IMG/VR virus record: IMGVR_UViG_3300031707_000050
Location: 1-41,914 of that record
Reading direction: 5' to 3' (one strand)
Origin: a virus
Length of the DNA stretch: 41,914 nucleotides
A model generated the notes under the pieces. The model saw only the letters and a program-made list of their open reading frames with translations. It was not told the origin of the DNA and did no database searches. Shown here one piece after another: positions 1 through 41,914 of this stretch. Each line of letters opens with the position of its first letter. Within the stretch, counting starts at the first letter, position 1. Made by a program: the position numbers and the translations under genes.

Positions 1-127
1 GACGCTGAGCGAACCGGTCCAGGAGATAATGGAGCTGGTCGGCCGGGACGTGGCAACCGATGCGATCAACGGCAAGTTTGGAACCGAGCTCCAAAAGGCG
101 AACTGGAAGGATTACGCGGAGCTGGCC
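1..127. repeat. Terminal direct repeat, left copy (circular-assembly overlap)
   Basis: The first 127 bases are identical to the last 127 (41788-41914). The length 127 is a common largest k-mer of short-read assemblers, and the coding frame continues in phase across the join. This is therefore best read as the overlap of a circular contig, giving a 41,787 bp genome. A true terminal repeat of the packaged DNA is possible but less likely for this length. Confidence 0.95.
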
Positions 128-3100
128 CTGCGCACCGCCGACATGGCATTCCGAAGCAGCCTGGTTTTTGCCCTGCCTGGCTCGATCAAGGAAGCCCGCG
201 CCGCGGTGGGAGAGACGTTCAGGGAAGCAGGGACGAAGGAGGCGAGCCGAAAGCTTGAAGCGCGGGACAAGATGAGCGACCAGGCCCGCCCGCCGGTGGA
301 GCGGATCAAGGAGGTTACCGGCAGGCTGGATGAGCTTGGCGCGGCGCAGAGGAAGCTGGAGCTGGAGAACCCCCAGATCCTCGATCTCACCGGCGTGAAG
401 AAAATCGACAAGAAGCTCGGCGATCTGATCAAAGAACACCAACGCAACACAACAGAGGTCCACTACCTGAACCTGCTGCTCCAGGAGACCAAAGCTGCGA
501 TGCCCCAGCCTTGGAAGCAGATCCGGGAGGAAGGGCAGCGTTCCGCGCCGAGCGCCGAGACGACAGCGGTCGAGACTCCTCCTGTCATCGAGTTGCGGTC
601 CCCTGTGGTCGAGCAGATCCGCAGCGGCATGCCGAACCTGACCCCCGAGCGGGCCCAGGGAGCCGCGCTGTACGTCAAACTGCACGCCGATACCATCGGA
701 ATGAGCCTCGAAGACTACATGAGCAGCAGGTTCGTCAAGGACATCTTCGATCCGACCATGGCTGCCGAACTGGAGAGGCAGGGCCGCTGGGGCGGGATGC
801 GCTGGGACGAGGCTGGCAAGGCGATCTTCATGACAACCACCCAGAGCAACTTCTCCACTTGGGTGCACGAGCTGAACCACCTTTTCGCGCGAGAACTGAC
901 AGCAGAGGAGCGGACCTCCGCGGAGGGCTGGCTCGGCGTGAAGCACGGCGTTCCCTGGTCGACAAAACAGCAGGAGAGCTTCGCCAACGCAGGGCTTGCC
1001 TATGTAATGAGTGGTCGTTCTCCCACCGAGGAGCTGAGGCCAGTGTTCCAGCGTTTCTCGGGTTGGGTGGATGAGGTCTACCACAGCGTAAAGGATCAGT
1101 GGCCGGTCACCGAGGACATCCGAAAGACATACGAGGGGATCCTCGCGGGGAAGCGGAAGGCGGAAGCTCCAGCTCCTGGGGCGGCTGCCGAGCTTTTCCA
1201 GACTCCCGCCATGCACGGCACAGCATTCGACTTCGAACGCTTCTCCCTCGAGAAGGCAGGCACCGGCGAAGGTACCGCTCAGTTTGGCCAGGGGGTCTAC
1301 CTCACCTCCAAGGAGAATGTGGCCCGCTACTACGCCGACTACGTCACCAGGCGCAGAGGCGGCGAGGCGCGCCAGGTTCTCAAGACGGAGATCGCCAGGG
1401 ACAACTTCCTGAGCTGGTACGAAAGTCCGACCGACGCGCAGCGCAAGCAAATCCTCGAGGGGGCGATCAAGGAAAGCATCTTCGCCGACCGGGAGAACAA
1501 AGGCTACTTGGTCGAGCGATTCAAGCAGGCGGTGAGAGACGGCACCGGGGAGGACTTGTACCGCTATCTTTCCATCGCCCTGGGAGACGAGAAGGGGGCC
1601 AGTGCGTTCCTCCAGCGATCCGGGATCGATGGCTTTACCTATCCGGTGGGGACAGTCATGGGCGGGAACCTCGCCAAATCACCCGAGCGCGGAATGAACT
1701 ACGTTGTCTTCGACCCTGGCAACATTTCCATCAAGGAGCGGGTGCTCTTCCAGACCCCGCCCGTGGCTGAGGAAGATCTGAAGTATGAAGGCTGGCGTCT
1801 GAAGAGCGAGGATGTGATCCGGGCGAAGATGACGGGCCCGATGCCGGCAGAAAGCGCGCGGAAAATGCTGCTGAACGCCGGCGTGAGTCCCGAGGAAATG
1901 AAGTGGATGGGGCTCGATGAGATGCTGGCCAAAGGAGGGAAGATCACACCCGAACAGCTCCTGGAGGCCATCCGGGAGAATGGGATACAGGTAGTTGAGG
2001 TCGTGAAGGGCGATTCATCTCAGCGCGACCTGGAGCAGGCCGAGGCGGAGTTCATGAGGATCGCCACCCGGGAAGGTGTGGATCCCGGGGACGCGCGGGA
2101 TATCGGGCTGGACGCGGCTCGCGGCCAGTTCACCGAGTTCTGGAGCGCCGAGGAAGCGCGCAAGATCGCTCAGCAGCAAGACCTTCTCACGCCGGAGGCC
2201 CGCGCGGCGTTGGACGAACTGAAGCGTGCCTACCAGCGGCGTGGCGAAGTGCCGGTGGGCGAACAGACGAAGTACGGAAGGCCGGAGCTCAAACTGCCGG
2301 GCGGAGAGGCATATCGGGAGCTACTGTTGCGCATCCCTGCGGCTGCAACGACGAAAGGCCTTGGAATCTTCCAAAGCCCGCATTGGAAAGAGAGTAACGT
2401 GCTTGCCCATGTCCGCTTCGACGATCGGGTCGATGCCAAGAGAGCGCGCATTCTGTTCATTGAGGAGCTCCAGAGCGACTGGCATCAGGCAGGGAGAGAG
2501 AAGGGGTATAAGGGAGAGGTACCTGCATACTCGCCAGAAACGCAAATCTTGATTGATCAGGTCCGCGCCCTTGGGATAACCAAACCGGTCAGCGAAATCG
2601 CCGTTCGGGATATCCAGGTTCACGGCGGCGGTTCTGAATTATCTCAACGCTGGTCGAGGGCGATGATCGCCGGCGAGTTGAGACCGAAGGATATGTTCGC
2701 TATTCCCCAGGCGCCCTTCAAGAAGAGTTGGCCCGAGCTCAGCTTCAAGCGGATGCTCCGCTGGGCCGCGGAGAATGAGTACGACGAGCTCGCCTGGACT
2801 ACGGGGGAGCAGCAGGCCAAACGATACGACCTCTCGAAGCAGGTGGACGGGATCTCGATCCGCAAGGAGGCAGACGGGAGCTTCAGCATCCTCGCCGACA
2901 AACAGGGGGAGCCTCTCATCGAGAGCGCCGCGCGGGATGCTGGAGATCTAGCCGGGATCGTGGGCAAGGATCTCGCAGCCAAGGCAGACGCTTTGCCGGT
3001 GGGCCAGGAGGAACGATTCACCGGGAAGAACCTGGTCGTTGGCGGCGAGGGCATGAAGGGCTTCTACGACAAGATCGTCGTGGACGTGGCCAACAAGATC

Positions 3101-6100
3101 GGCAAGAAGTGGGGGGTGAAGGCAGGGGAGACAAAGATCGCTGCCACGGATGCGGCCGCGCTCAGAGAAAAGTACAGGCCCGACCTGCTGACCGAAGGGA
3201 TCATGAGTCCGGTCCATTCCCTGGCCATCACTGACGAAATGCGGCAGGGCGTCGAGCGGGGGCTGTATCTCTTCCAGACCCCCCCGAAGGTCACCGATGA
3301 GATCGACCAGCGCCGGCTGAACAAGGCGATGGGCGACTTCTGGGGCTTCACTGAGGATCCCCAGTACGGGGCCTTTATTCTATCCACCGGGCAGATGCTG
3401 GACTTCTACCACAAGAGGATCGGCCAGACCGAGACCGTGATGGAAGGCGGCAGGCCCGTCCATCGAGGGATACCTCTTCCGTACGAAGGGCTGTTCAAGA
3501 CGGAGCGGTTCAGTGAGGAGTTCATGTCCCGCGCTGGCGCCATCCGCATGGCGTACGACCCGGATGTGACGATCCTGGAGAGCATCCGACAGCCCTCCGA
3601 AGAGCAACTTGCGCGGATCGCTTCCATCGCACCCAAGACACGGTCGCTCGACCTGGAGGTCTCCGATTCGGAGGGAGCGTCGCTTGGCTACAAGAGGATC
3701 GAGTATCCGTCCGCGGATCACGTGCGCGCCTTCTACAACGCCTTCGACCTGTACTCCCCTCGAGGGATCCTGGCGCAGCCATCTCCGCATGAGGAAGCTG
3801 TCCAGCGAGCTGTGAAGATCGGCGACCCGGTGCCGCAGAAGGTGCTGGATCAATACCAAAGCCGGGACTGGGCAAAAGAGGAGATTCATCGACGCAGCGG
3901 TCTGGTGGAGGAGGCGCGCAAGGCTGCGTACTTCGACGAGTTCGCCGACTGGATGGCCCGGGCAGAGTCCGATCGGTCGGCAAGCGACTCGTATTACCGC
4001 ATGATCTGGGACCAGGCGCAGAGGCCCGCGGATCCTGACGTGCAGGCGGCTCGATTCACCGCCGCCATGGATGATGCCACGATCAAGGACGTGCTGGCGG
4101 AAATCGAGTTCGCCGAGGGCGATCTCGTTCCTGCGCCCGCGCGTGTAAGCGAGCTCACTCCCGAAATGCGCGAGCTGGGAAAGAAACTCCTGAAGAACGA
4201 GCAGGACGACGCGCTTCTTGCAACCGTCAGGGCCCAGATTCAGGGGGAGGCGGACCGGTGGCGGCGCATTCTGATGATCGAGAATCCCGAGAATCCTACC
4301 CGGGCGGCCAGTGCGATACAGACCGCGGAGTCGCAGGCCGAGGAGCCCGCCTTCCAGCCGATCACTGCGCGCCAGGCGAATACACGATTCATCAAGCAGA
4401 TGGAGGCGGGCGGACTGGCCAACTTCGCGGCCGATCTCTACGAGCGGCAGATAGCCAGGTTCCATCAGGCTGGCAAAACCAAGGAGCAGAAGTTCTCCCT
4501 GCCGCGCTGGATCGCGGTCCTCGGGAAGCAGGCAAGTGACGGCGTTCCAGACGTACTGTCGGAACGCATGGCCCTGAAGGAGCTACGCAGGGAGCCGACG
4601 GTCTATCGGGAGATGTTCGCCGGCTTCTACCACGAAGAGGAGATGATCCGACAGCTCGAGCACGAAAAGGCGACGGGGGACGTAGCGGAGGATGAGCGGC
4701 TTCGAACGGAGAATCTCCGGCTGCGCGGCCAGGTCTCGAAGTGGAAGGAAGAGCTTGCCGCAATCCAGAAGCAACTGGACTGGGGAGCACACCCCGACGA
4801 CCGAATCGCTGATCTGAACAAGACCCTTGAAGAGCAGCGCCAGGGGGTAGAGACAGCGAAAGAGGAGCTTCGCCTTGCTCAAGTGAAAGCGGAGTCACTC
4901 GAGCGAGACCTCGAGAGCCACCGGGGCGGCGAGGTCGAGAAGAGCTATCAGCAGCAGATTCACTTGCTCGAGGGGCTAGTGGAGAAGCAGAGAAACCAGC
5001 AGTCGGCGATGATGGCGAACCAGTTCCGCCGGGACCGCATGGAGCGCCTGATCCTCGAGATTCATCGCCCAGGGGATCCGTACATCGCCGATGCGGAACA
5101 GCGGATGATCGAGGACATTCAGAGCAGGATTACATACGACCCTGTCGACGCAGAGGGCGGGATGCTCAACCGGCTTCGCGAGTGGAGGCGACAGAATCCG
5201 AACGCGGAGATGCCTCCCGAATTGGTCCTGCAGATCGAGGCGAGGAATCCTCGAGTCCTGAGCTTCGCGGAGCTGGATCAGATCGCCAAGCGCGTGCGGG
5301 ACCTGCGAAGGCAGGGCCGGCAGAAGAGGATGCAGGAGCTGAGCTGGGAACGGGCCATGGTCACCTTGCAGCAGAGCGATGCCATCATGCAAATACGGAA
5401 GGGCGAGCCACCTGCGGAGGTGAAGGGATTGGGTACGGCCGGGGCGCGAAAAGTCTACAAGACTGGCGCTCTGAAGGCGGGGCTATGGGGGACCTGGAGG
5501 ATGAACCGGATTGCCGACATGCTGGGTCCGACTTTCACGCGCTGGTTGTGGGACGAGGTCAACGACGCGACCGACGCCACACTTTCGGAGATCCGCAAAG
5601 TAGATAGGGCTGCGGTGGAGAAGCTGAAGGCCCTGGGCATCGGGCCGCGCGAGCTCGGGCGGATGGAGACAATCGATGGCATCCAGTTCACGCGCGCGCA
5701 GATGATCGGTGTCTATATCTACAGCCAGGACCTAAAGACCTATGCGGCCATCAGGTGGGGAAACAGGATCCCAGACGAAACGATCCGGGCCGCGATCCAG
5801 AAGCTCACGCCGCAGGAGAGGGAGTATGCCGACTGGATGGTGAGCACGCTCTCAAGCGACGCGGATTTCGACCGCCTGCAGGCGGCTCAGATCGAGTTCA
5901 ACAACACCCGCATGCAGAGGGTGGCGCGGTACTTCCCCATGCAGAGGCGAGGAATTGCCGGCGGCATGTTCCTGAGCGAGATTGCCCAGGAGTTGCTGGA
6001 AATGAGAGGATACTCGCGCAGGCCGCGGCCCCGCTCTGGTTTCCTCGTTTCTCGAATTGACATCGCTCCAGGGAACCAGACCCCGGTACGTCTTGATGCG

Positions 6101-7324
6101 CCCGCCATCTTCCATGATCACGTGAACAAGCGGGAGTTCTTCATCAACAACGCGATGCTGATCAAGCGCCTGTCCAGGATCTTCGACAACCGGGAAGTCA
6201 CGCAAGCGATGTTGGATCGCTATGGCGACGCAATGCCGAAGCTGATCCAGAACTATATTACCGCGTATACGAACCCCAATATCTACCGGGCCGTTGAGGA
6301 CTGGGGCGACTTCGGGAGGATCCTCAGGGCCAACTACGGGCTCTCCCTGATTGGCTCCAACCTGATGACCATCCTGCGCCAGATCCCTGACATCCCTATG
6401 ATCATGATCCAGGCAGGCCCGATAGATGGGATTGTGGCGGCCGCTCAGTTCGCCCGCAATCACGCTGAGGCCATCAGGACGGTGCGGGAGAAGGCGCCAC
6501 AGCTGGAATTGCGTTCCTACGACCGCGTGATCGAGGAGATGCGCCTGCTCGACAAGACTGCCTACGAACGGGTGGTGAGGCGCGTCGGCGAGGCAGGTTT
6601 CGCCGCTCTCAAGGCGTTTGACACTGCCTCGAACACGATTGGCTGGCTGGCCATGTATAACAAAACCATGCGGCGAACAGGCAACGAACAGATGGCCGTG
6701 AAGGCCGCCCGGGACTTCATCCTGGCCAAGCGGCCCGCGGCGCGCGCGAAGGACCTGGCGCAACTCTGGAGGCAGCCGGGGATCATGAGCTGGCTCACGA
6801 TGTTCACCAACCAGCCCAACCAACAGTGGAACGTACTGACATACGACATCCCGCATAAGCTGGCAAGCGGCCTCCGGGGCAATTGGCAAGACCTGGGCGA
6901 GGCTGTCATGAATGCAACAGCGCTGGCGATCGGAGCTGTGGGCATGGGGATGGTTGCCAGAAAGTCAATCGGAGGGATCCGGGATTGGGGCAAGGACACG
7001 GTAGCCGGGATCCTTGGGAATATCCCCTTCATCGGCTACGACGTCGAGAACGCCATTCGCGGGCAGGGACCGCGCGGGGGATTCGAGCCGATATCAGGCG
7101 CTTACGAAGTGGCCAAGGCGATCACGGACATCGCGGGTGGCGAAGAGAAGGAAAAGGCGGTGCGTGAGGTGATGAACGCATTCTGGGGTCTTTCGCAGAC
7201 AGCAGGGCTGCCCGCGATCCAGATGCGGCGCTTGTATAGAGCCGCGGAAAGCATGCTTCAGGATGGCGCTCAGGTAGAGGATCTCTGGCAGCTTGTGGGC
7301 GGCCCACCGAAGAAGGAGAAGTAA
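1..7324 (+). CDS. Giant polyvalent ejection protein, C-terminal 87% (joins 40706-41914)
   Basis: Codons start at base 2. Joined with 40706-41787 the gene encodes 2,801 residues, and this part holds about residues 362-2801. Visible domains (whole-protein numbering): a zincin-like metallopeptidase with HELNH at 650-654 and a likely third ligand Glu686; an ART-PolyVal-type ADP-ribosyltransferase-like domain at about 764-942, opening with an HGTAFDFERF-like motif and GQGVYLT; a common phage polyvalent-associated domain at about 1108-1440 (EELQSDWHQAG, WTTGEQQAKRY, GMKGFYDK); a further phage domain around 1476-1608 (GFTEDPQYGAFILSTGQMLD); a coiled coil at about 1895-2045; and a C-terminal region at about 2405-2745 resembling the LPD38-like end of these proteins. 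The linker LFQTP occurs at 759, 943 and 1451, that is at domain edges. Proteins of this kind are packaged in podovirus heads and ejected, and P1 DarB acts against restriction. The role here is inferred from architecture. Confidence 0.9.
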   Translation, partial: TLSEPVQEIMELVGRDVATDAINGKFGTELQKANWKDYAELALRTADMAFRSSLVFALPGSIKEARAAVGETFREAGTKEASRKLEARDKMSDQARPPVERIKEVTGRLDELGAAQRKLELENPQILDLTGVKKIDKKLGDLIKEHQRNTTEVHYLNLLLQETKAAMPQPWKQIREEGQRSAPSAETTAVETPPVIELRSPVVEQIRSGMPNLTPERAQGAALYVKLHADTIGMSLEDYMSSRFVKDIFDPTMAAELERQGRWGGMRWDEAGKAIFMTTTQSNFSTWVHELNHLFARELTAEERTSAEGWLGVKHGVPWSTKQQESFANAGLAYVMSGRSPTEELRPVFQRFSGWVDEVYHSVKDQWPVTEDIRKTYEGILAGKRKAEAPAPGAAAELFQTPAMHGTAFDFERFSLEKAGTGEGTAQFGQGVYLTSKENVARYYADYVTRRRGGEARQVLKTEIARDNFLSWYESPTDAQRKQILEGAIKESIFADRENKGYLVERFKQAVRDGTGEDLYRYLSIALGDEKGASAFLQRSGIDGFTYPVGTVMGGNLAKSPERGMNYVVFDPGNISIKERVLFQTPPVAEEDLKYEGWRLKSEDVIRAKMTGPMPAESARKMLLNAGVSPEEMKWMGLDEMLAKGGKITPEQLLEAIRENGIQVVEVVKGDSSQRDLEQAEAEFMRIATREGVDPGDARDIGLDAARGQFTEFWSAEEARKIAQQQDLLTPEARAALDELKRAYQRRGEVPVGEQTKYGRPELKLPGGEAYRELLLRIPAAATTKGLGIFQSPHWKESNVLAHVRFDDRVDAKRARILFIEELQSDWHQAGREKGYKGEVPAYSPETQILIDQVRALGITKPVSEIAVRDIQVHGGGSELSQRWSRAMIAGELRPKDMFAIPQAPFKKSWPELSFKRMLRWAAENEYDELAWTTGEQQAKRYDLSKQVDGISIRKEADGSFSILADKQGEPLIESAARDAGDLAGIVGKDLAAKADALPVGQEERFTGKNLVVGGEGMKGFYDKIVVDVANKIGKKWGVKAGETKIAATDAAALREKYRPDLLTEGIMSPVHSLAITDEMRQGVERGLYLFQTPPKVTDEIDQRRLNKAMGDFWGFTEDPQYGAFILSTGQMLDFYHKRIGQTETVMEGGRPVHRGIPLPYEGLFKTERFSEEFMSRAGAIRMAYDPDVTILESIRQPSEEQLARIASIAPKTRSLDLEVSDSEGASLGYKRIEYPSADHVRAFYNAFDLYSPRGILAQPSPHEEAVQRAVKIGDPVPQKVLDQYQSRDWAKEEIHRRSGLVEEARKAAYFDEFADWMARAESDRSASDSYYRMIWDQAQRPADPDVQAARFTAAMDDATIKDVLAEIEFAEGDLVPAPARVSELTPEMRELGKKLLKNEQDDALLATVRAQIQGEADRWRRILMIENPENPTRAASAIQTAESQAEEPAFQPITARQANTRFIKQMEAGGLANFAADLYERQIARFHQAGKTKEQKFSLPRWIAVLGKQASDGVPDVLSERMALKELRREPTVYREMFAGFYHEEEMIRQLEHEKATGDVAEDERLRTENLRLRGQVSKWKEELAAIQKQLDWGAHPDDRIADLNKTLEEQRQGVETAKEELRLAQVKAESLERDLESHRGGEVEKSYQQQIHLLEGLVEKQRNQQSAMMANQFRRDRMERLILEIHRPGDPYIADAEQRMIEDIQSRITYDPVDAEGGMLNRLREWRRQNPNAEMPPELVLQIEARNPRVLSFAELDQIAKRVRDLRRQGRQKRMQELSWERAMVTLQQSDAIMQIRKGEPPAEVKGLGTAGARKVYKTGALKAGLWGTWRMNRIADMLGPTFTRWLWDEVNDATDATLSEIRKVDRAAVEKLKALGIGPRELGRMETIDGIQFTRAQMIGVYIYSQDLKTYAAIRWGNRIPDETIRAAIQKLTPQEREYADWMVSTLSSDADFDRLQAAQIEFNNTRMQRVARYFPMQRRGIAGGMFLSEIAQELLEMRGYSRRPRPRSGFLVSRIDIAPGNQTPVRLDAPAIFHDHVNKREFFINNAMLIKRLSRIFDNREVTQAMLDRYGDAMPKLIQNYITAYTNPNIYRAVEDWGDFGRILRANYGLSLIGSNLMTILRQIPDIPMIMIQAGPIDGIVAAAQFARNHAEAIRTVREKAPQLELRSYDRVIEEMRLLDKTAYERVVRRVGEAGFAALKAFDTASNTIGWLAMYNKTMRRTGNEQMAVKAARDFILAKRPAARAKDLAQLWRQPGIMSWLTMFTNQPNQQWNVLTYDIPHKLASGLRGNWQDLGEAVMNATALAIGAVGMGMVARKSIGGIRDWGKDTVAGILGNIPFIGYDVENAIRGQGPRGGFEPISGAYEVAKAITDIAGGEEKEKAVREVMNAFWGLSQTAGLPAIQMRRLYRAAESMLQDGAQVEDLWQLVGGPPKKEK

Positions 7325-8707
7325 ATGCTTACCTCGACCATTCGAAAGGTGCAATACAATCTCAGCTATCCCTTCGGCGATACCTACGGCATCACCTACA
7401 GTTACTGGCTGAAGGCTCAGCTCTTCGCAGTGCTGAGCTTCGACGACGGAACCGCGGACCAGACGCTTGTCCTTGATGCTGACTACTCTCTGACGGCTCC
7501 CGGGGCCACTGGCACGCTGACCAAGCTGTCGGACTGGGATCACGAAGCCATACGCCTCACGATCTACCGGGTGGTGGATCTGGACCAGTCCACGGATTAC
7601 CGCAACGGCGAGGCTGTGGACATGGATCTGCTGGAGCAGGACTTTGATCTCACGGTCGCGCGGGATCAGCAGTTGCAGGAGCAGATTGATCGCATCGGAA
7701 GCACGCCGATCACCGATCCTTCGGCTGCAGGTTCGCTGCCGGCTCTCAGCGAACGCCTGGATAAGTTCGCCGCCTGGGACGGGGCGGGGCAGTGGATCGC
7801 GGCGCTGGGGATCCCTTCGGTTCCCGCTACGGCCCTCGCGGCTACGCTGCTTGATGATACGACGCTTCTCCAGCAGCAAAAGACACTCGGCCTGCTTGCC
7901 TCAGGTGCATCGGCCGCGATCGCGGCCGACCTTCAGGCCATCCTCGCGGCAGCAGACGCTCCCACCGCGCTTACGCTTCTCGGAGGCGTGCAACTCACGA
8001 CAAGCAACTGGGCGAAGATCTTCAAGAGCCTTCTGGTCCCAGGCGTGCCGACTCCCGTGCACAAGGGTTTCATCGTGGCGGTGGGGGGGACTGCTCGCTA
8101 CGCGAACAACCGCACAAACAGCTCCACCACCGCTCTGAAGCTGATTGACTCGGGGGCCACCTTCACGACCTGGGGAGTGCAGGCTGGCGACTACGTCCAC
8201 AACGCTACGGACGGCACCTGGGCGCGTGTCACGGCAGTGGACTCGCAGGTTCAGCTCTCGATCGACACCGATATCTTCCTGGCCACCGGCAAGACCTACA
8301 AGCTCTGGAGCGTGCCCAGCTGGTCAACAATGGGCGTGGGCAACGTGCTGGAGTGCGACGGCAGCACGATAAGCGACGCGCAGAGTCCTTGGAACGGGTT
8401 CAAGTTGCCCGACCTCAACGGAGCGGGTCCGTATGCGGACGATTCGGACAGCGGAGGACGGATCCTGCGCGGCGGAACAACGGCGGGAGTGTTGCTGGAG
8501 GACCAGGTGCAGGGGCATTTCCATCCAATCGCAATGACGACACAGGCTCAAGGGGCTCCTGTAGGCACGGGCGGAAACAACACAGTCACCGGGGGAACGA
8601 TGTATACAGGATCCCCTTCCACCGACGGTACCAACGGCACCCCGCGCGTGGGCAAAGAGAGTCGCGGTCGTTCGATGAGCGTTGTCTACGTCATGAGGAT
8701 CAAGTAG
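7325..8707 (+). CDS. Tail fibre protein with collar-like C-terminus
   Basis: 460 residues. The ATG follows the stop of the giant gene directly and has an AAGGAG ribosome site. The N-terminus (residues about 1-125, rich in Tyr and beta-prone) looks like the particle-binding end of a podovirus fibre and ends in a short helical stretch (LLEQDFDLTVARDQQLQEQ). The middle is Ala/Leu-rich and probably forms the trimer shaft. The C-terminus from about residue 335 (ECDGSTISD, FKLPDLNG, RILRGG, QGHFHP, VVYVMRIK) resembles phage tail-collar domains. The next gene looks like a fibre-assembly partner. It would bind the host surface; the receptor cannot be read from sequence. Confidence 0.85.
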   Translation: MLTSTIRKVQYNLSYPFGDTYGITYSYWLKAQLFAVLSFDDGTADQTLVLDADYSLTAPGATGTLTKLSDWDHEAIRLTIYRVVDLDQSTDYRNGEAVDMDLLEQDFDLTVARDQQLQEQIDRIGSTPITDPSAAGSLPALSERLDKFAAWDGAGQWIAALGIPSVPATALAATLLDDTTLLQQQKTLGLLASGASAAIAADLQAILAAADAPTALTLLGGVQLTTSNWAKIFKSLLVPGVPTPVHKGFIVAVGGTARYANNRTNSSTTALKLIDSGATFTTWGVQAGDYVHNATDGTWARVTAVDSQVQLSIDTDIFLATGKTYKLWSVPSWSTMGVGNVLECDGSTISDAQSPWNGFKLPDLNGAGPYADDSDSGGRILRGGTTAGVLLEDQVQGHFHPIAMTTQAQGAPVGTGGNNTVTGGTMYTGSPSTDGTNGTPRVGKESRGRSMSVVYVMRIK

Positions 8708-14798: not shown

Positions 14799-15485
14799 GG
14801 CAGCCTTTTTCCCTATTAAGGGCATGCTTTTGACTACAAATCCCGCAAGCACTTGGTAGCCATGATCGGTAAAGTGGACGTTATCCGGGATTTGTTCCTC
14901 CGGAAGCATAGGTAGGATCTTGTCGTGCAGGTCATCGATGGGTATACCCTCCTTCTGCATGATCTGGGCTGCAGCCTCGTTGTACTGTATGACGTTCGCC
15001 TCGAATCCCCAAGTCGAGCCGGTAGGGATCGGAGTTGTGCTTGCCCAGATGAGTTCCGCCCGGGTGTCCTTGAGGATAGAGACGATCGCGCGCAGATTGC
15101 TCTTGTAGTCCTCGAGGGGGACCTGCCAACTCCCGTCGATGTAGCGGAGATCGTGTAGCCCGAAATTGAAATGAATGACGTCCCAGTCGCCATCGCCGAC
15201 CCACGCCTGTATATTCTGTAGCCCCCGTGCCGTCGAGTAGCAGTTCTCCGCGGGATGCTCCACGGTGCCAGCGATTGCCTCTCTGACATAAGGGGTATAG
15301 CCCATCGAGATCGAATCGCCGATTAGGAGGATCCTGGGATGGGGGGAGGGTACGGGAATAGGTTCGGGTTCGGGAATAGGTTCGGTTTGGGGAATAGGTT
15401 CGGGTTCGGGCGCGGGGGCCGGCTGTAAGGGCGGCTGGCAAGAGATGAGGGCGAGGAGAGAGAGAAGGGCAAAGAGCTTTTTCAT
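14724..15485 (-). CDS. SGNH/GDSL-hydrolase lipoprotein, lysogeny operon
   Basis: 253 residues. A signal peptide ends in lipobox LISC, giving a lipid-anchored Cys16. Next comes a Pro/Glu spacer built from six-residue EPEPIP-type repeats (about 20-48), then an SGNH domain: GDS with nucleophile Ser58, a GLHD block (109-112, where the family usually has GxND) and DNVH with Asp201 and His204. SGNH enzymes remove acyl groups from lipids or surface sugars. This one would sit on the cell envelope. It lies third in the repressor operon and so would be made in the lysogen, which suggests surface modification or exclusion of other phages (inference). The last 25 residues are basic and may be an extension. 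Confidence 0.85.
   Translation of the reverse strand: MKKLFALLSLLALISCQPPLQPAPAPEPEPIPQTEPIPEPEPIPVPSPHPRILLIGDSISMGYTPYVREAIAGTVEHPAENCYSTARGLQNIQAWVGDGDWDVIHFNFGLHDLRYIDGSWQVPLEDYKSNLRAIVSILKDTRAELIWASTTPIPTGSTWGFEANVIQYNEAAAQIMQKEGIPIDDLHDKILPMLPEEQIPDNVHFTDHGYQVLAGFVVKSMPLIGKKAALPRRLLRPHPSVPRPHRPSHSRPS
15354..15407 (-). repeat. Three tandem 18-bp repeats coding the Pro/Glu spacer
   Basis: GGGAATAGGTTCGG recurs at 15354, 15372 and 15390, a period of 18 bases that keeps frame and encodes the EPEPIP/QTEPIP units between lipid anchor and enzyme. Copy number could vary without breaking the gene, changing spacer length. Confidence 0.85.
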
Positions 15486-26501: not shown

Positions 26502-27191
26502 GTGGTGGGAAGAAAATGCACGGTATGCGCTCATGCGAAAGCCCAGGAAATCAACAAGGCGATCGTGCGGGGGGACTCATACCGCGCCATTTCGCACCGG
26601 TTTGGAGTCTCGAGAGATGCGACGCAGAGGCACCGGAAGCACCTGGCCACCCAACTGTTCAAGTTGGAAGAAGCGAAGAAGCTGGCCGATGCGAGATCTC
26701 TTCTTCAAGAGGTCCAGAACAACAGCGAGCGCATGTACAAGATGTTCGATGCCGCGGACCTGTACCTCCGGGATCCCGAGCATCCCAAGCGCTACGAGCT
26801 GGGACCGCGCGCGGAGGACGTCGCGGTCACGTATGTGGACCAGCAGAAGGTAGGCCGGGGCAAGAAGGCGAAAGTGCTGTGGGTACGGAAAAGGGCTCGG
26901 CTTTCCGAATTGCTCAGGCGAACGAGGAAGCCCATCACCGGCTGGTACTACAGAATCGCGGATCCCCGAGAGCTCTTCCTAAAGACGGCGCTCGCGTTGA
27001 ACAAGCAGCTGGAGCTCATCGGTCGCCTGAATGGGCAGATCAAGGACGTGCAGGTGCCAGTCTCCATCGCAGAGCTATGGTTGAGGATCCGAACCGTGGT
27101 ATGGATCGCCACTGAGAAGCATCCTCAAGTTCGTGAGGCCATCGTGAGGCTGCTCGAGAAGCAGGCGGACTTGGATGAAAGCGGCTTGTGA
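26502..27191 (+). CDS. terS: Terminase small subunit
   Basis: 229 residues from GTG. An N-terminal CTVCAH zinc-like knuckle leads into a helix-turn-helix (EINKAIVRGDSYRAISHRFGVSRDATQRHRKHL), the DNA-recognition form common in phage small terminases. Helical oligomerisation segments follow (LEEAKKLADARSLLQEVQNNSERM) and a tail (TEKHPQVREAIVRLLEKQADL). It overlaps the large-subunit ATPase gene by 17 bases. It would select the packaging site. Confidence 0.75.
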   Translation: MVGRKCTVCAHAKAQEINKAIVRGDSYRAISHRFGVSRDATQRHRKHLATQLFKLEEAKKLADARSLLQEVQNNSERMYKMFDAADLYLRDPEHPKRYELGPRAEDVAVTYVDQQKVGRGKKAKVLWVRKRARLSELLRRTRKPITGWYYRIADPRELFLKTALALNKQLELIGRLNGQIKDVQVPVSIAELWLRIRTVVWIATEKHPQVREAIVRLLEKQADLDESGL

Positions 27192-28089
27192 GCTCACAAG
27201 GACCGAGTTGAACGAGTGGATCTACCAGCTCTCCATCACTCGCTACGTCGAGTCGCTTGGATTCGAGCCCTATCTCTGGCAGAAGGAAATCTATCGAAGC
27301 GAGCACAAGCGGAAGCTGATCAACGGCGCACGGCAGAGCGGGAAGAGCACACTAATATCCTCAAAGCCCTGCCATCGATCAAAGTACTGGCCCGGTAGCC
27401 TATCGATCATCATAGCGGCCACGGAGGAGCAGGCGATCGAGGACATGCGGAAGGTGAAGGATTTCATCGCGCGGGATCCGGACTACCCGCGGCTGGTTCG
27501 AGACGCCGACACTCTGCTCGAACTGTCGAACAAGAGCAGGATCGTCGTCCGCCCCGCAACGGAGAAGGGCGCCCGTGGACAATCGAGTCCTGACCTGATC
27601 ATTCTGGACGAGGCAAGCCGGATTGAGGACGCTGTCTATAAGGGCGCAGTGCGCTCAATGTTGACCGACAACGAGAAGTGCGAGCTGGCCGCGATCTCCA
27701 CGCCGAATGGCAGGGAGGGATTCTTCTTCCGCGCCTGGGAGTCCAGCAGATGGGAGCACTATGAGATCCGCTCCCAGTGGGACGTGGACGAAGAGGGATG
27801 GAGGCTTGTGCCTGCGATGCCGGAGAAAGCATTCCGCGAGCCGCGCGAGAAGAAGGGAATCCGCGCGTTCTACTCGCCCCGCCACAGGAATCTCGAGGAG
27901 CAGCAGGAGAACCTGGAGGAGATCGGGCCGCTGATGTACCGGCAGGAGAACAACGTAGAGTTCGTGGAGCCGGAGGACCAGGTCTTCAGCTACGAGGAGG
28001 TCGAGAAGATGTTCTCCCGCGAGGTCAAGTCCATGGATTTCGGTCTGGTGAAGGAACGTGAGGTCGCAGCGCTGGAGGTGAGGGGGTGA
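27175..28089 (+). CDS. terL: Terminase large subunit, ATPase half (split gene)
   Basis: 304 residues. Walker A GARQSGKST (51-59), Walker B LIILDEA (141-147) and coupling motif STPNG (175-179) mark the packaging ATPase. A normal large terminase continues into an RNase H-like nuclease, but this frame stops after FSREVKSMDFGLVKEREVAALEVRG, in the linker before the nuclease. The nuclease domain is a separate gene at 29069-29806, with about 1 kb of small genes between. The two proteins would have to assemble on the portal. Confidence 0.9.
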   Translation: MKAACELTRTELNEWIYQLSITRYVESLGFEPYLWQKEIYRSEHKRKLINGARQSGKSTLISSKPCHRSKYWPGSLSIIIAATEEQAIEDMRKVKDFIARDPDYPRLVRDADTLLELSNKSRIVVRPATEKGARGQSSPDLIILDEASRIEDAVYKGAVRSMLTDNEKCELAAISTPNGREGFFFRAWESSRWEHYEIRSQWDVDEEGWRLVPAMPEKAFREPREKKGIRAFYSPRHRNLEEQQENLEEIGPLMYRQENNVEFVEPEDQVFSYEEVEKMFSREVKSMDFGLVKEREVAALEVRG

Positions 28090-28127
28090 GTCCGATCACA
28101 AAGTTGCTCAAGGGGTGCGAGGGGTGA
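28086..28127 (+). CDS. 13-codon coupling mini-gene
   Basis: GTG overlaps the terminase stop (GTGA) and its own stop overlaps the next GTG. The product VSPITKLLKGCEG ends, like the two mini-genes at 28396 and 28655, in a GAGGGG codon string that doubles as the ribosome site of the following gene. It probably serves translation rather than making a peptide. Confidence 0.35.
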   Translation: MSPITKLLKGCEG

Positions 28128-28399
28128 TTTTGGTCAAGTGCGAACTGTGGCCCATGGGGGATGAAAGCAAGGCGCGGGAATTGTGCCGTGCCTACATTTC
28201 CAACGACGGAAAAACGTCTGCTCAGACACAAGGAATGCACGGGAGCTATGACGCGCGTTTCATGCAATCGAGCCGCTTCGACCCGAAAAAGGTATGGAAG
28301 ACCGGCCATGCGGAAAACATACACCGAACGAAGCAAGGGGTGTGGGACATACTCTATGTCTGCCTGAGAGCGGCGGGGTTGGACAGGCGCAACCCATGA
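28124..28399 (+). CDS. Conserved small phage protein (ELWPMGDxxKARELCRA)
   Basis: 91 residues from a GTG inside GAGGGGTGA. The pattern VKCELWPMGDESKARELCRAYISNDGKT...WKTGHAENIHRTKQGVWDILYVCLRAAG matches a small conserved phage protein usually found in early regions. Here it sits inside the packaging module. Function unknown. Confidence 0.7.
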   Translation: MILVKCELWPMGDESKARELCRAYISNDGKTSAQTQGMHGSYDARFMQSSRFDPKKVWKTGHAENIHRTKQGVWDILYVCLRAAGLDRRNP

Positions 28400-28425
28400 G
28401 CGAGAGAAAGAGGCGCGAGGGGTGA
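28396..28425 (+). CDS. 9-codon coupling mini-gene MSERKRREG, copy 1
   Basis: ATG overlaps the upstream stop, and its stop overlaps the next GTG. Its codons for REG carry GCGAGGGG, the ribosome site for 28422. An almost identical copy lies at 28655-28684. Confidence 0.4.
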   Translation: MSERKRREG

Positions 28426-28430
28426 GTGAA
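28397..28430 (+). repeat. 34-bp direct repeat, copy 1 (copy 2 at 28656-28689)
   Basis: 34 identical bases, 259 bases apart. Each copy spans a stop, a nine-codon mini-gene, a GAGGGG ribosome site and the GTGAGTGAA start of the next gene. It is a duplicated reinitiation cassette and a possible recombination point. Confidence 0.9.
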
Positions 28431-28658
28431 ACGATCCGCGATGATAGACCTTTCCCAATTCAGGGTGGTGCCTATCCCGACCCAATCAGACCGCACTATT
28501 ACCCTGCCTGCACGATTCCATGGTGGCTCGCAGAAGAGGCATACAAAGTCTATTCGGCAAAGTATGGCACCCAACAAAGTCTTGAACGACTGGCGGAACG
28601 AGGAGGTTTTGGTAGGGAGGAACTTGTGTGGCTTCTTAGGGGGGCCATCAGGACGTGA
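28422..28658 (+). CDS. Conserved phage protein (IPWWLAEEAY...LERLAERGGFGREEL)
   Basis: 78 residues from GTG. IPWWLAEEAYKVYSAKYGTQQSLERLAERGGFGREELVWLLRG is the signature of a widespread small phage protein of unknown function. Start and stop both overlap mini-genes carrying the 34-bp repeat. Confidence 0.8.
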   Translation: MSETIRDDRPFPIQGGAYPDPIRPHYYPACTIPWWLAEEAYKVYSAKYGTQQSLERLAERGGFGREELVWLLRGAIRT

Positions 28659-28684
28659 GCGAGAGAAAGAGGCGCGAGGGGTGA
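28655..28684 (+). CDS. 9-codon coupling mini-gene, copy 2
   Basis: GTG version of the mini-gene at 28396, same nine codons after the start. It overlaps the stop of 28422-28658 and the GTG at 28681. Confidence 0.4.
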   Translation: MSERKRREG

Positions 28685-28689
28685 GTGAA
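28656..28689 (+). repeat. 34-bp direct repeat, copy 2
   Basis: Identical to 28397-28430. Recombination between the copies would remove exactly the gene at 28422-28658 and leave one cassette. Confidence 0.9.
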
Positions 28690-28923
28690 GGACAGCAATA
28701 CGGCCGCCAGCCCGTCACACCGCAATTCATCCTGACGAACATGCTTCTAAAGGCCTCCGAGATTGAACATCTGGTGATCTGCACCAAGACCAAGGATGGA
28801 TTGTTGCATGCGTACTGGAGCGACATGAGCAGTGAGCTGGCCATCGGCCTTTTTGAAATCGGCAAGATGAGCGTCTACAACGAGATTCTCAAGCATCATG
28901 TCGACGTTGAGGGAGAGGGATGA
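28681..28923 (+). CDS. Unknown small protein between terminase halves
   Basis: 80 residues from GTG. It has a beta-alpha look (ILTNMLLKASEIEHLVICTKTKDGLLHAYWSDMSSELAIGLFEIGKMSVYNEIL), resembling small phage proteins with a 'vvv.tkdg....ywS......laxaxl...k' pattern. The stop overlaps the next start. Confidence 0.65.
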   Translation: MSEGQQYGRQPVTPQFILTNMLLKASEIEHLVICTKTKDGLLHAYWSDMSSELAIGLFEIGKMSVYNEILKHHVDVEGEG

Positions 28924-29072
28924 AGACGATCAGCCAAGAGCAAGCCGAGCGCCTGCTGGTGGCACTGAAGGAAGCGGAGCAGGTATTTGCCAACGAGTGG
29001 CAGCACTTCGAGCCATGCGAGACCTGCGCTCTGATCCGAGAGATCGATCCTGACTGGAAGGTGCAGGATTGA
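28920..29072 (+). CDS. 50-residue helical protein with CxxC
   Basis: ATG overlaps the upstream stop; GGGAGAGG precedes it. MKTISQEQAERLLVALKEAE is helical and EPCETCALIREIDPDW carries a CxxC pair that may bind zinc. Its stop overlaps the TTG start of the nuclease half of the terminase. Confidence 0.6.
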   Translation: MKTISQEQAERLLVALKEAEQVFANEWQHFEPCETCALIREIDPDWKVQD

Positions 29073-29806
29073 AACAACACGCTGTCTGCGTGGACCTGGG
29101 GAAGAAGCGCGACCGCGCGGTGTTCTTCGTCATGAAGGACAACCCTCAGATCGTCGACGGGGATAGGCGGTTCGGCAAGCCCGACCGGCTTCTTCATCTC
29201 TACGATGTGCTTTTCATCGATCAGTTTGTGAGGAAAAGCTACCCGTCCCTGGTCGAGTCCCTGTGCGTCCTCATTGGCAACAAGGAACTGAGCCAGGCGA
29301 GCGATCTGCTGGTCGACGGGCGCAATGTCGGGGAGCCGGTCGTAGACATGATGCGCGAGAAGGGCCTGTATCCGATCCCGATCATGGCCACGGGCGGCGA
29401 GCACGTGCACGAGGAGTATGAGGAGATGGGGCGCGTCTTCTCAAACGTGCCGACCAAACTGAAGGGAGCTCGAGTACTTTCGCAGATCGACGTGCCGAAG
29501 AAGGATCTGGTCGACGCCGGCATGTTGCTCGCTCAGCAGGGCAGGGTGGGAGTGGCCAGGGGCTTGCATTGGGCTGAGGAGTTCAAGCGGCAGCTCAATC
29601 ACTTCAAAGGCGTGGAAAACAAGAGGACCAAGCATACATCCTACGCCGCGGATGACGAGGACGTGCACGACGATATCGTCTTCACCTACCTGATGGCCGC
29701 CTGGTGGTTTACAAGAGGGGGCGAGGCTGTTAGTCCAGAAGACAGGGAACTCTCGGGCGGGAGCGAGAAGCGGAGCGCGGATTGGAATCCCGTCGAGTAC
29801 TTCTGA
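29069..29806 (+). CDS. terL: Terminase large subunit, nuclease half (split gene)
   Basis: 245 residues from TTG, coupled to the upstream stop (TTGA). The RNase H-like nuclease acids are present: Asp9 in CVDLGKKRDRA, Asp83 in LLVDGRNVG and Asp201/Asp202 in HDDIVFTYLMAAWW. It starts precisely where the nuclease domain of an intact large terminase begins and has no ATPase motif. It would cut DNA into genome lengths with the ATPase encoded at 27175-28089. Confidence 0.9.
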   Translation: MKQHAVCVDLGKKRDRAVFFVMKDNPQIVDGDRRFGKPDRLLHLYDVLFIDQFVRKSYPSLVESLCVLIGNKELSQASDLLVDGRNVGEPVVDMMREKGLYPIPIMATGGEHVHEEYEEMGRVFSNVPTKLKGARVLSQIDVPKKDLVDAGMLLAQQGRVGVARGLHWAEEFKRQLNHFKGVENKRTKHTSYAADDEDVHDDIVFTYLMAAWWFTRGGEAVSPEDRELSGGSEKRSADWNPVEYF

Positions 29807-29817
29807 GGAGGTCGATC

Positions 29818-31527
29818 ATGGCGAAGCGATCCGATGAAATGGAGCTCACAGCTCCCAGGATATCCGAGGACAGCCTGAAGAGCCTGGAGAAGATCGAAGG
29901 CCAGGAGGCGGAGAAGCGCGCCGTTCGGATGCCTGCCTTGCGCGAGGTGGCCAGGCTTTTCAATCCGCTCATGACAGGTTGGGACACGGGTGAGGACGAG
30001 AAGAATCCCATTCCAAGCATGAAGGACCTCATGGAGAACCGCGGCTGGAAGGACTCCGTACGAATGGGCGACGGTATCCAGGCCTACGGGTTTTCGCGCC
30101 AGAACCCATGGGTGCGGATCGCGATGGAGGATGAGGACCTCATGGAGGAATCCGACGTCGCTGACTGGTGCCAGAACGGAGAGTTGCACTGCTCTCGCCA
30201 GTTCGGAAGAAGCAATTTCTACGACGAGGGCCGGGCTGCGGTGAGGAGTTGCGGAGATTTCGGGACCGCCATCATGGTGCGCAACCGGAACAAGGAACGC
30301 AACTACCCCAGCTACAGGAATCTCCACATAGGGCGCTCTCTGATCATGGAGGATGAGAACGGCGAGGTTGACGTACTTTTCTACGAACTGTGGCTGAGCG
30401 CATTCGACGCCGTGCGGATGTTCGGCGAAGCCTCTTTGCCCGCCACGATCCAGGAGGCTTATCGGAACAACCTCACCCGCAAATGGCAGTTCTACCACCT
30501 GATTTTCCCGCTGGACAAGTTCGATCTCGACTTGGGACGGCGATCAATACGCGGAATGCCGATCTACTCGCTGTACGTTTCCACCTCGCCGAAGTGGAAG
30601 GCTGTGAGAGAAGGCGGGTACGAGGTGCCGAACTTCTGGGCATGGAGATGGAGCAGGGCGAGCGACGGGTCAGCCTGGGGGACGGATGCCCCAGGGCTTC
30701 TTTCGGTCTCCGATGTGCGGCAAGCCAACGGAATGCGGAAGGAGTTCAACCGACAGATCCTGCTCAAGGGCAGGCCGCCGCTCAAAGCCACGGAGGGCAT
30801 CGCCAACCGGATCAATATCACTCCATCCGGCGTGACGACGATTCGGCCGGGGCAGGATTACACTGCCGGCCTGGTGATCGGTGACCCAGTACCTATTCTG
30901 GACATGATCAAGTACATCGGCGAGGACGTCGACGATACCTATCACACGAAACTGTTCCTGGTTCTCTCTCAGACCATGGACCAGCAGCGCACCCTCGGCG
31001 AGGCGGGGATGATCAAGGGAGAGCAGGCGGCGATGCTCACCGCATTCATGGGCAGAATGAGCATGGAGTTTCTGGAGAGGGCCCACGAGGACATGGTTCA
31101 ATCCGAGCTCGAGGCCGGGCGGATGCCTCCTCCACCTGCCGTGCTTCAAGGGAAGAGGATAAGGACCGACCTGGTATCACCGCTGGCCCTGCTGATGAAA
31201 CGGTATATGCTTTTGGATCCGACGCGGCAGTGGCTTTCGGAAGTCATCACCATCGGAAAGAACTTAGACCAGACGATCGTGGACGTTGCGAATGTCGAGA
31301 GGTACATACGGAACGCTGCTGAGTTGTACCACGTGGACCGCAGAGTCGTGCGCGACGTCGTGGAGGTGGAGAAGCGACGGCGGATCCGCGCGGAGCAGCA
31401 GCAGGCGATCCTTCAGGCTCAGCTTGCTGCGCAGAAGGCGGAAGCGGGAGCGAAGGCGTATGCTGCGGGGTCCAGGGCACCGGAGGCCGGAAGCCCGATG
31501 GCGGCGGCGATGGGGCCGGCGGCGTGA
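29818..31527 (+). CDS. Portal protein, podovirus head-tail connector type
   Basis: 569 residues from the ATG with GAGGAGG upstream. Length, place after the terminase, and blocks such as GFSRQNPWVRIAMEDEDLMEES, SCGDFGTAIMVRN, NFWAWRWSRASDGSAWGTDAPGLLSVSDVRQANGMRKEF and FLERAHEDMVQSELEAGRMPPPP fit the podovirus head-tail connector/portal family. The C-terminus is an Ala/Gln-rich helix (QQQAILQAQLAAQKAEAGAKAY), the barrel or crown end. It forms the ring through which DNA enters and leaves. Confidence 0.88.
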   Translation: MAKRSDEMELTAPRISEDSLKSLEKIEGQEAEKRAVRMPALREVARLFNPLMTGWDTGEDEKNPIPSMKDLMENRGWKDSVRMGDGIQAYGFSRQNPWVRIAMEDEDLMEESDVADWCQNGELHCSRQFGRSNFYDEGRAAVRSCGDFGTAIMVRNRNKERNYPSYRNLHIGRSLIMEDENGEVDVLFYELWLSAFDAVRMFGEASLPATIQEAYRNNLTRKWQFYHLIFPLDKFDLDLGRRSIRGMPIYSLYVSTSPKWKAVREGGYEVPNFWAWRWSRASDGSAWGTDAPGLLSVSDVRQANGMRKEFNRQILLKGRPPLKATEGIANRINITPSGVTTIRPGQDYTAGLVIGDPVPILDMIKYIGEDVDDTYHTKLFLVLSQTMDQQRTLGEAGMIKGEQAAMLTAFMGRMSMEFLERAHEDMVQSELEAGRMPPPPAVLQGKRIRTDLVSPLALLMKRYMLLDPTRQWLSEVITIGKNLDQTIVDVANVERYIRNAAELYHVDRRVVRDVVEVEKRRRIRAEQQQAILQAQLAAQKAEAGAKAYAAGSRAPEAGSPMAAAMGPAA

Positions 31528-40709: not shown

Positions 40710-41914
40710 GCGATCTCGCCGACAGGCTCACACCGGTCGATACCACACTTGCCCTTGGCCAGCAGGCCGTCAGCCGTTGGGAGCACACTCGATCAAACAT
40801 GGCTTTGGAGGACAGGCTGACCCCGGTAGATCCAGCAACAGGGAATGGCTTGCCCGCCTCCATCGATCCCTGGGGATCCTACCAGCAACAGCGCCGGCAG
40901 TTCGACTACCAAACCCTCATGCAGCTCGCCGGGGTCGGAAACGACACAAACCCCGAGCGCCGCGACGAGGAGGAAGCGAAAATCCAGGTCTCTCTCTACC
41001 TCTCCGACCGGCTGAGGTTGAAACCCCGCGACGTCTACCTTTCCTGGGACCCGGCCGGGCACAGTCCTTTCGCCGAGGCGTACTTCAAGACGGTCGACCG
41101 ACCCATCTCCTACAAGCAGCAGGTGAAGAACGAGATCACCCGGATGGCAAAGACCTACCAGGCGATGAACATCGCCACCGAGATCATGTTCTCCGCCTAC
41201 GATCCCGCGAAATACGATGAGCTTCTGCAAACCCTAGGCTCCATCCCGCGCGAGCAAGGGCCGCCGGCGCGGAAGCTTGGTCAGGGCGGTCTGTGGGACT
41301 GGATCAAAGGGATCCCGTTGGCGGCAATTCAGCAGAGCCCGTACCTGATGGAAATGGGAGTCGCTGAGTTGGTTGGCGCGGCGGTCGGTGGTGGCCTAGC
41401 CGCTCTCGGCGGTCCAGAGGCCGTGCCAGCAGGCGCATTGATTGGACGCCGCGTAGCCGGGTTCCTGGCAGGAACCCGCGAGGGGGCGGCTTCGATCTTC
41501 ATGGACATCGTGACCATGATCGATCCTGAAACCGGAGAACCGCTCTACAAGGTCGTGAGAGACAAGGAGGGACTGGCCAACATCGCCCGCGTGTCTGCCG
41601 CTATGTTCGGCGGCATTGAGGGCGGACTGAACATGCTTCAGTTTGAGACGCTCCTGGGCGCCAACTTCGCCAAGAAGATGGCCCAGAGCATCGGCCTGGG
41701 CGCTGTGGAGAAGGCCGGGAGGTCGGGGGCGATCCGTTCCGCTTTCCTGACGTTCTTCAAGAAGTACGGCGTCAACGTCGCCTTTCAGACGCTGAGCGAA
41801 CCGGTCCAGGAGATAATGGAGCTGGTCGGCCGGGACGTGGCAACCGATGCGATCAACGGCAAGTTTGGAACCGAGCTCCAAAAGGCGAACTGGAAGGATT
41901 ACGCGGAGCTGGCC
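40706..41914 (+). CDS. Giant polyvalent ejection protein, N-terminal part (continues at 1-7324)
   Basis: The ATG at 40706 overlaps the upstream stop, the joint style of this operon; an ATG at 40799 is possible but lacks a ribosome site. Residues 1-360 lie here before the 127-base overlap. A motif DRLTPVD appears at 6-12 and 36-42. A Gly/Ala-rich hydrophobic stretch (about 200-265, VAELVGAAVGGGLAALGG, then VAGFLAGTREGAASIF) could meet the membrane during ejection. Frame check: codon 41786-41788 (CAG) runs into ACG at base 2 of the window, so the whole protein has 2,801 residues. Confidence 0.9.
   Translation, partial: MSDLADRLTPVDTTLALGQQAVSRWEHTRSNMALEDRLTPVDPATGNGLPASIDPWGSYQQQRRQFDYQTLMQLAGVGNDTNPERRDEEEAKIQVSLYLSDRLRLKPRDVYLSWDPAGHSPFAEAYFKTVDRPISYKQQVKNEITRMAKTYQAMNIATEIMFSAYDPAKYDELLQTLGSIPREQGPPARKLGQGGLWDWIKGIPLAAIQQSPYLMEMGVAELVGAAVGGGLAALGGPEAVPAGALIGRRVAGFLAGTREGAASIFMDIVTMIDPETGEPLYKVVRDKEGLANIARVSAAMFGGIEGGLNMLQFETLLGANFAKKMAQSIGLGAVEKAGRSGAIRSAFLTFFKKYGVNVAFQTLSEPVQEIMELVGRDVATDAINGKFGTELQKANWKDYAELA
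41788..41914. repeat. Terminal direct repeat, right copy
   Basis: Identical to 1-127. Remove one copy to close the 41,787 bp circle. Confidence 0.95.

Follow-up and report, generated by a model that had tools for sequence, protein, structure and literature searches.

Large terminases encoded by two open reading frames (ORFs) are already known from Arthrobacter phages of cluster AY, where they correspond to gp2 and gp3 of BlueShadow (PMC12820723). In Vibrio phage ICP1, terL contains an intron that is spliced out (PMC10448857), and the terL of Mic1 carries inteins (PMC7156551). In this study, the whole IMG/VR virus record IMGVR_UViG_3300031707_000050 (41,914 bases; hereafter the window) was analyzed, in which the ATPase and the nuclease of the large terminase subunit (TerL) are encoded by two ORFs with a block of small genes between them. 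For another essential phage enzyme, a 2007 study of Aeromonas phage Aeh1 by Friedrich and co-workers reportedly found nrdA in pieces, with functional separate polypeptides and a homing endonuclease gene between the halves. The comparison with relatives showed that the split of the terminase in the window is real, but that it was not made by the block; very probably, TerL was parted by fission of the linker in the ancestor of a clade and has been kept as two cistrons of one motor, the boundary of which was invaded later. No description of this split clade was found in the literature searched.

The two halves were located as follows.

27175..28089, plus strand: terminase large subunit, ATPase half, 304 amino acids (aa); PF03237, phrog_7579
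29069..29806, plus strand: terminase large subunit, RNase H/RuvC-like nuclease half, 245 aa; phrog_27743, fold and catalytic-site alignment

These positions agree exactly with the original prediction, which was made from the sequence and described two separate halves 979 bases apart. No further ATPase or nuclease half was found in any of the six frames of the window.

Relatives of either half were fetched from IMG/VR and GTDB and then scanned with both profiles, and the clade was collected from the window's own halves by conserved peptide patterns. Each of the 39 distinct loci with both halves had ATPase and nuclease as separate ORFs, and none had them fused; that is, the single polypeptide with both domains that characterizes the Terminase_6 type was found neither in the window nor in any relative with both halves. 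The halves overlapped by a 4-nt stop/start in 10 of the 39 loci and lay no more than ~115 bases apart in most others, and all three frame relations between them occurred. Neighbouring ATPase and nuclease ORFs are a stable trait of the lineage (39 loci, one main clade), and 31 split rows formed one group on the maximum-likelihood tree of the ATPase half (support 97, by a quick method). The halves are separate ORFs in every relative that has both, and it was therefore a pre-existing gene boundary that received the block. The original prediction had instead taken the terminase to be split by the 1-kb block and had implied a special status for one phage; neither point can be upheld, since the halves are usually abutting or joined by a 4-nt overlap and the split is clade-wide. 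Sequence comparison thus argues that the fission is the older event, shared by the clade, and that the small genes entered later.

Three split loci of Acidobacteria (metagenome-assembled genomes L085, L087 and L090) fell near the fused Meiothermus/Thermus terminases on the ATPase tree and may represent a second, independent fission, with long branches making the placement unsure. The split clade carries extra residues, ~25–30 after the ATPase STPNG motif and ~20–30 in the nuclease, which the fused homologues and the Acidobacteria loci lack. Two relatives showed peculiarities of their own. In L012 (722-2035), a DNA methyltransferase-like ORF apparently lies, by reading only, between the gene of the terminase small subunit (TerS) and the ATPase half, and the latter is without ~70 residues after the STPNG-region motif. 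In L058, which is a short contig, the frame changes within the nuclease half (1802-2541), as a result of a sequencing error or in a pseudogene.

What lies at the junction varied among the relatives, and the following inserts were found.

L033/L073: junction insert of 484 bases, with an HNH endonuclease in L073
L071: junction insert of 528 bases, HNH endonuclease
L072: junction insert of 532 bases, HNH endonuclease
L059: junction insert of 451 bases, YopX

At least four state changes of the insert are required on the tree, and the HNH carriers occupy derived positions within the already split clade. These observations bear on a proposal that concerns the origin only and is compatible with linker fission, namely that an HNH gene landed in the linker, made two genes of one, and was later lost or gave way to other small genes, a genes-in-pieces history like that reported for the nrdA of Aeh1. 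The HNH genes sit exactly at the junction in L071, L072 and L073, and such endonuclease genes are often near terminases (PMC10448857), but the derived positions of the carriers make the present HNH genes later arrivals. Such an origin is possible, with the balance leaning somewhat to the other side.

The window has the P-loop packaging ATPase domain of the Terminase_6 type: the ATPase ORF matched Terminase_6N (PF03237) with an expectation value (E) of 3.6e-7, above the curated cut-off. Its best PHROG was phrog_7579, an ATPase-only terminase family (E 5.6e-29) of 239 positions, so ATPase-only terminases are already present in the PHROG library. A profile of eight relatives also matched the solved ATPase structures of T4 gp17 and P74-26 (the latter being the 4zni entries, titled 'Phage terminase large subunit', which we take to be of P74-26 origin). 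The ORF ends ~33 residues past the VEPEDQVF motif, in the linker region.

The nuclease ORF gave no direct Pfam match, and because direct tblastn against phage records gave no match either, it was tied to known terminases via L084, L085, profiles and fold. It matched phrog_27743 (annotated 'unknown') with E 2.3e-14, its relative in L084 passed the Terminase_6C cut-off (6.9e-8), Terminase_6C was also found in L085, and tblastn from the Acidobacteria homologue in L085 reached the TerL of P74-26 and Meiothermus. The best PDB match of its AlphaFold model (predicted local distance difference test, pLDDT, 77) was the large-terminase nuclease of G20c (Foldseek E 4.7e-5), with the TerL nucleases of E217 and SPP1 ranking lower. 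D9, D83 and the HDD at 200-202 (within VDLGKKRD, LLVDGRNVG and VHDD), the three acidic positions of the catalytic site, align with those of P74-26 TerL and are kept across the aligned nuclease relatives; the C-terminal RNase H/RuvC-like nuclease with three acids of the Terminase_6 type is therefore present, but in a separate ORF. The C-terminal tail, W-x-P, is conserved as well. The start of the ORF is followed directly by the first RNase H strand, at a place where the linker stands in the fused terminases of Meiothermus MMP17, Thermus Riverbug and P74-26, and therefore both halves look like complete domains. The ratios of nonsynonymous to synonymous substitution rates (dN/dS), calculated for the window vs. 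its twin contig L002, were ~0.01 for the ATPase half and ~0.12 for the nuclease half. That the nuclease half stands outside the motor, as a free nuclease or a decaying remnant, with the ends made by another enzyme, has a parallel in phi29-type motors, which function with a vestigial nuclease domain (PMC7672431), but is improbable in view of the conserved catalytic acids, the purifying selection, and the ATPase-nuclease-portal synteny seen where it was tested.

The block between the halves is composed of the following features.

28086..28127, plus strand: minicistron of 13 codons (VSPITKLLKGCEG, then stop), overlapping its neighbours by 4 nt on either side; includes GCGAGGGGTGA; counterpart in L002
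28124..28399, plus strand: g1, 91 aa; phrog_8231; absent from L002
28396..28425, plus strand: minicistron of 9 codons (MSERKRREG, then stop), within the first copy of a 34-nt direct repeat
28422..28658, plus strand: g2, 78 aa; no family; homologue in L002
28655..28684, plus strand: minicistron of 9 codons (VSERKRREG, then stop), within the second copy of the 34-nt direct repeat
28681..28923, plus strand: g3, 80 aa; weak phrog_32645; a longer frame from 28426 is not a likely start
28920..29072, plus strand: g4, 50 aa; no family
29070..29080, plus strand: TGAAACAACAC, 11 bp; single copy in the window, two copies in L002

They form an unbroken relay, in which every TGA overlaps the next start by 4 nt from the ATPase stop through 29069, and the nuclease start, a TTG, overlaps the g4 stop in the same manner (TTGA), as had been predicted. 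The relay of overlapping starts and stops proposed at the outset was likewise confirmed in its unbroken 4-nt overlaps, but three minicistrons (13, 9 and 9 codons) were missing from it. Two of these (28396-28425 and 28655-28684) sit in an exact 34-nt repeat and have SE after the start, as in the following gene; the core of the repeat was found in IMG/VR only in L002 and in one contig without similarity to window proteins. The block had been characterized as conserved small phage genes of the kind usual in early regions, which was not supported: g1 alone has a clear PHROG family, g2, g3 and g4 having none, and the sole detected relative of g1 (in L100, 1-4964, from another phage) is flanked by a terminase-like gene and a likely portal gene and thus stands outside any early region. 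g3 was detected only in L002.

Family searches found no HNH or other nuclease family in the block of the window, and the Rfam scan found no intron, consistent with the earlier statement that the gap holds no intron, intein or HNH gene. The sole Rfam match at E<=1, a CRISPR-repeat at 29034-29075, was sub-threshold and was taken as chance. A spliced element such as an intron in the block, from which one fused terminase would result as with the spliced terL of ICP1 (PMC10448857), would accord with the HNH endonucleases at the same junction in relatives, since introns often contain such genes or have them close by, but is very improbable: no Rfam intron was found, the block is full of coupled ORFs, and the halves abut in most relatives, with their own starts and 4-nt overlaps, leaving nothing to splice.

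L002 is an independent contig, with DNA identities to the window of 97% in the ATPase half and 95% in the nuclease half, and repeats the arrangement of the window, although some of its small genes differ and its halves are 1185 bases apart. g1 is missing from L002, and the GCGAGGGGTGA copies that flank g1 in the window are one copy there, as would fit if recombination between the GCGAGGGGTGA repeats had added or removed g1. Further, L002 has a recent 526-bp insertion exactly at the nuclease start, with TGAAACAACAC on both sides (7576, 8102), for which the window represents the empty site. The insertion (7576-8112) carries a zinc-ribbon-like ORF of 166 aa, for which no convincing family, and no relatives in phage records or IMG/VR, were found. 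By reading, the former nuclease start now opens a short frame (LKQHMGGRGR, then stop). The stop of this frame overlaps the ATG with which the inserted gene begins, and a re-made nuclease start is overlapped in turn by the stop of that gene. This pattern suggests that the minicistrons in the operon would be scars of earlier insertions. The chain of 4-nt overlaps is interrupted in L002 at the end of g2, and therefore strict coupling is not universal.

An assembly chimera, in which the small genes were wrongly joined and the true terminase is fused or, like the halves of relatives, abutting, is scarcely credible, since the independent L002 has the same order with DNA diverged by 3-7% in the terminase genes and with different insert content, and since the halves without the block would still be separate ORFs, as in every relative. 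The original prediction had named fused genes in all relatives, together with a misassembled block, as the outcome that would overturn it; this did not come about, as the clade yielded no relative with a fused gene and L002 carries a variant of the block. Programmed frameshift or readthrough was ruled out by the occurrence of all three frame relations and by the 979-nt gap in the window.

According to the favoured explanation, fission of the linker, the ATPase and nuclease domains would have been parted in the ancestor of a podovirus-like clade, and the packaging operon (TerS, ATPase, nuclease, portal) would have retained them since then as two cistrons. Their products would be made in succession by translational coupling and most likely would join non-covalently as one motor at the portal, with a division of labour in which the ATPase would pump DNA and the nuclease would cut the concatemer, while docking might occur via the clade-specific extra segments of each half. 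The boundary would later have gained genes in several branches, HNH in some and YopX in one, and in the window and L002 small genes with 4-nt overlaps and minicistrons would let translation still pass from ATPase to nuclease. Two polypeptides are the likely product, because all frame relations occur, the halves have their own starts, the catalytic aspartates are kept, and purifying selection acts on both halves. The original prediction of two separately translated halves with coupled starts, and of a motor that would need two polypeptides, is supported. That the two proteins form one motor is the most likely arrangement, as judged from the retained catalytic residues, portal synteny and purifying selection, and the extra segments together with the W-x-P tail are candidate docking surfaces. 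A more detailed version is put forward tentatively and may well not hold in full: TerL would be two-subunit throughout the clade, docking by ATPase residues ~203-230, nuclease residues ~113-142 and the W-x-P tail, and the boundary would be a landing site at which an insertion duplicates the start of the next gene and minicistrons keep the coupling.

Several points weigh against this explanation. The support consists of sequence comparison and a predicted nuclease fold, from which we infer the assembly of the motor; the nuclease model reached only modest template modelling scores (TM-scores) of 0.4-0.5, with 0.42/0.54 for its best match, G20c, and the AlphaFold model of the ATPase half was low (pLDDT 48) and was left unused. 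Fused close relatives with diverged motifs could have been overlooked by the peptide-pattern search. Part of the 4-nt relay could be chance, overlaps into short frames being individually cheap.

Two neighbouring genes complete the packaging operon in the window, in the order putative TerS, ATPase half, small-ORF block, nuclease half and portal.

26502..27191, plus strand: putative terminase small subunit (TerS), 229 aa; weak helix-turn-helix matches; overlaps the ATPase start
29782..31527, plus strand: portal / head-tail connecting protein; PF12236 2.3e-62, phrog_332

The TerS assignment is putative, position and the helix-turn-helix hint being its grounds; a homologue at 30-34% identity is syntenic, 5′ of the ATPase, in the tested relatives. 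The portal, a head-tail connecting protein of the short-tailed phage type whose real start may be the ATG at 29818, adjoins the nuclease half downstream in the tested relatives. An identical direct repeat of 127 bp stands at both ends of the record (1-127 and 41788-41914), as a complete phage contig that closes into a circle should have, and an integrase and DNA methyltransferases are encoded in the window. Elsewhere in it, a 2431-aa ORF (29-7324) has weak similarity to large phage endolysin-type proteins, and GGGAATAGGTTCGGGTTC stands in three tandem copies with 18-bp spacing (15354-15410), one copy being degenerate.

How the ATPase and the nuclease of the terminase are turned on and off while DNA is packaged has been difficult to work out, since a single chain holds both activities. 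A natural clade with separate, intact and selected halves offers components for independent expression, mixing and titration, and suggests that a large terminase can dispense with its covalent linker over long periods. The boundary left by fission further appears to serve as a site at which other genes, homing-type endonucleases among them, enter repeatedly.

Among known systems, cluster AY is alike in that adjacent ORFs encode the ATPase and the nuclease domain throughout the cluster, but belongs to another phage group, and the passage on it in PMC12820723 gives no inserted block or coupling analysis; no Arthrobacter record was among the tblastn matches listed for the window ATPase at E<=10. 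The fused Terminase_6 TerLs (T4 gp17, Thermus P74-26/G20c, Meiothermus MMP17 and Thermus Riverbug) share the ATPase motifs, the nuclease fold and the catalytic acids, but are single polypeptides with a linker and without the extra segments of the split clade. ICP1 resembles this locus in its terL coding sequence in two pieces with a homing endonuclease gene nearby, but there splicing restores one protein, while here no self-splicing intron between exons was found in Rfam and the halves have their own starts and abut as genes in relatives. The nrdA of Aeh1, also said to be a split essential phage enzyme working from separate polypeptides, concerns ribonucleotide reductase and not a packaging motor; in the window the inserted genes encode no nuclease and are younger than the split, while an endonuclease gene does lie between the halves in L071, L072 and L073.

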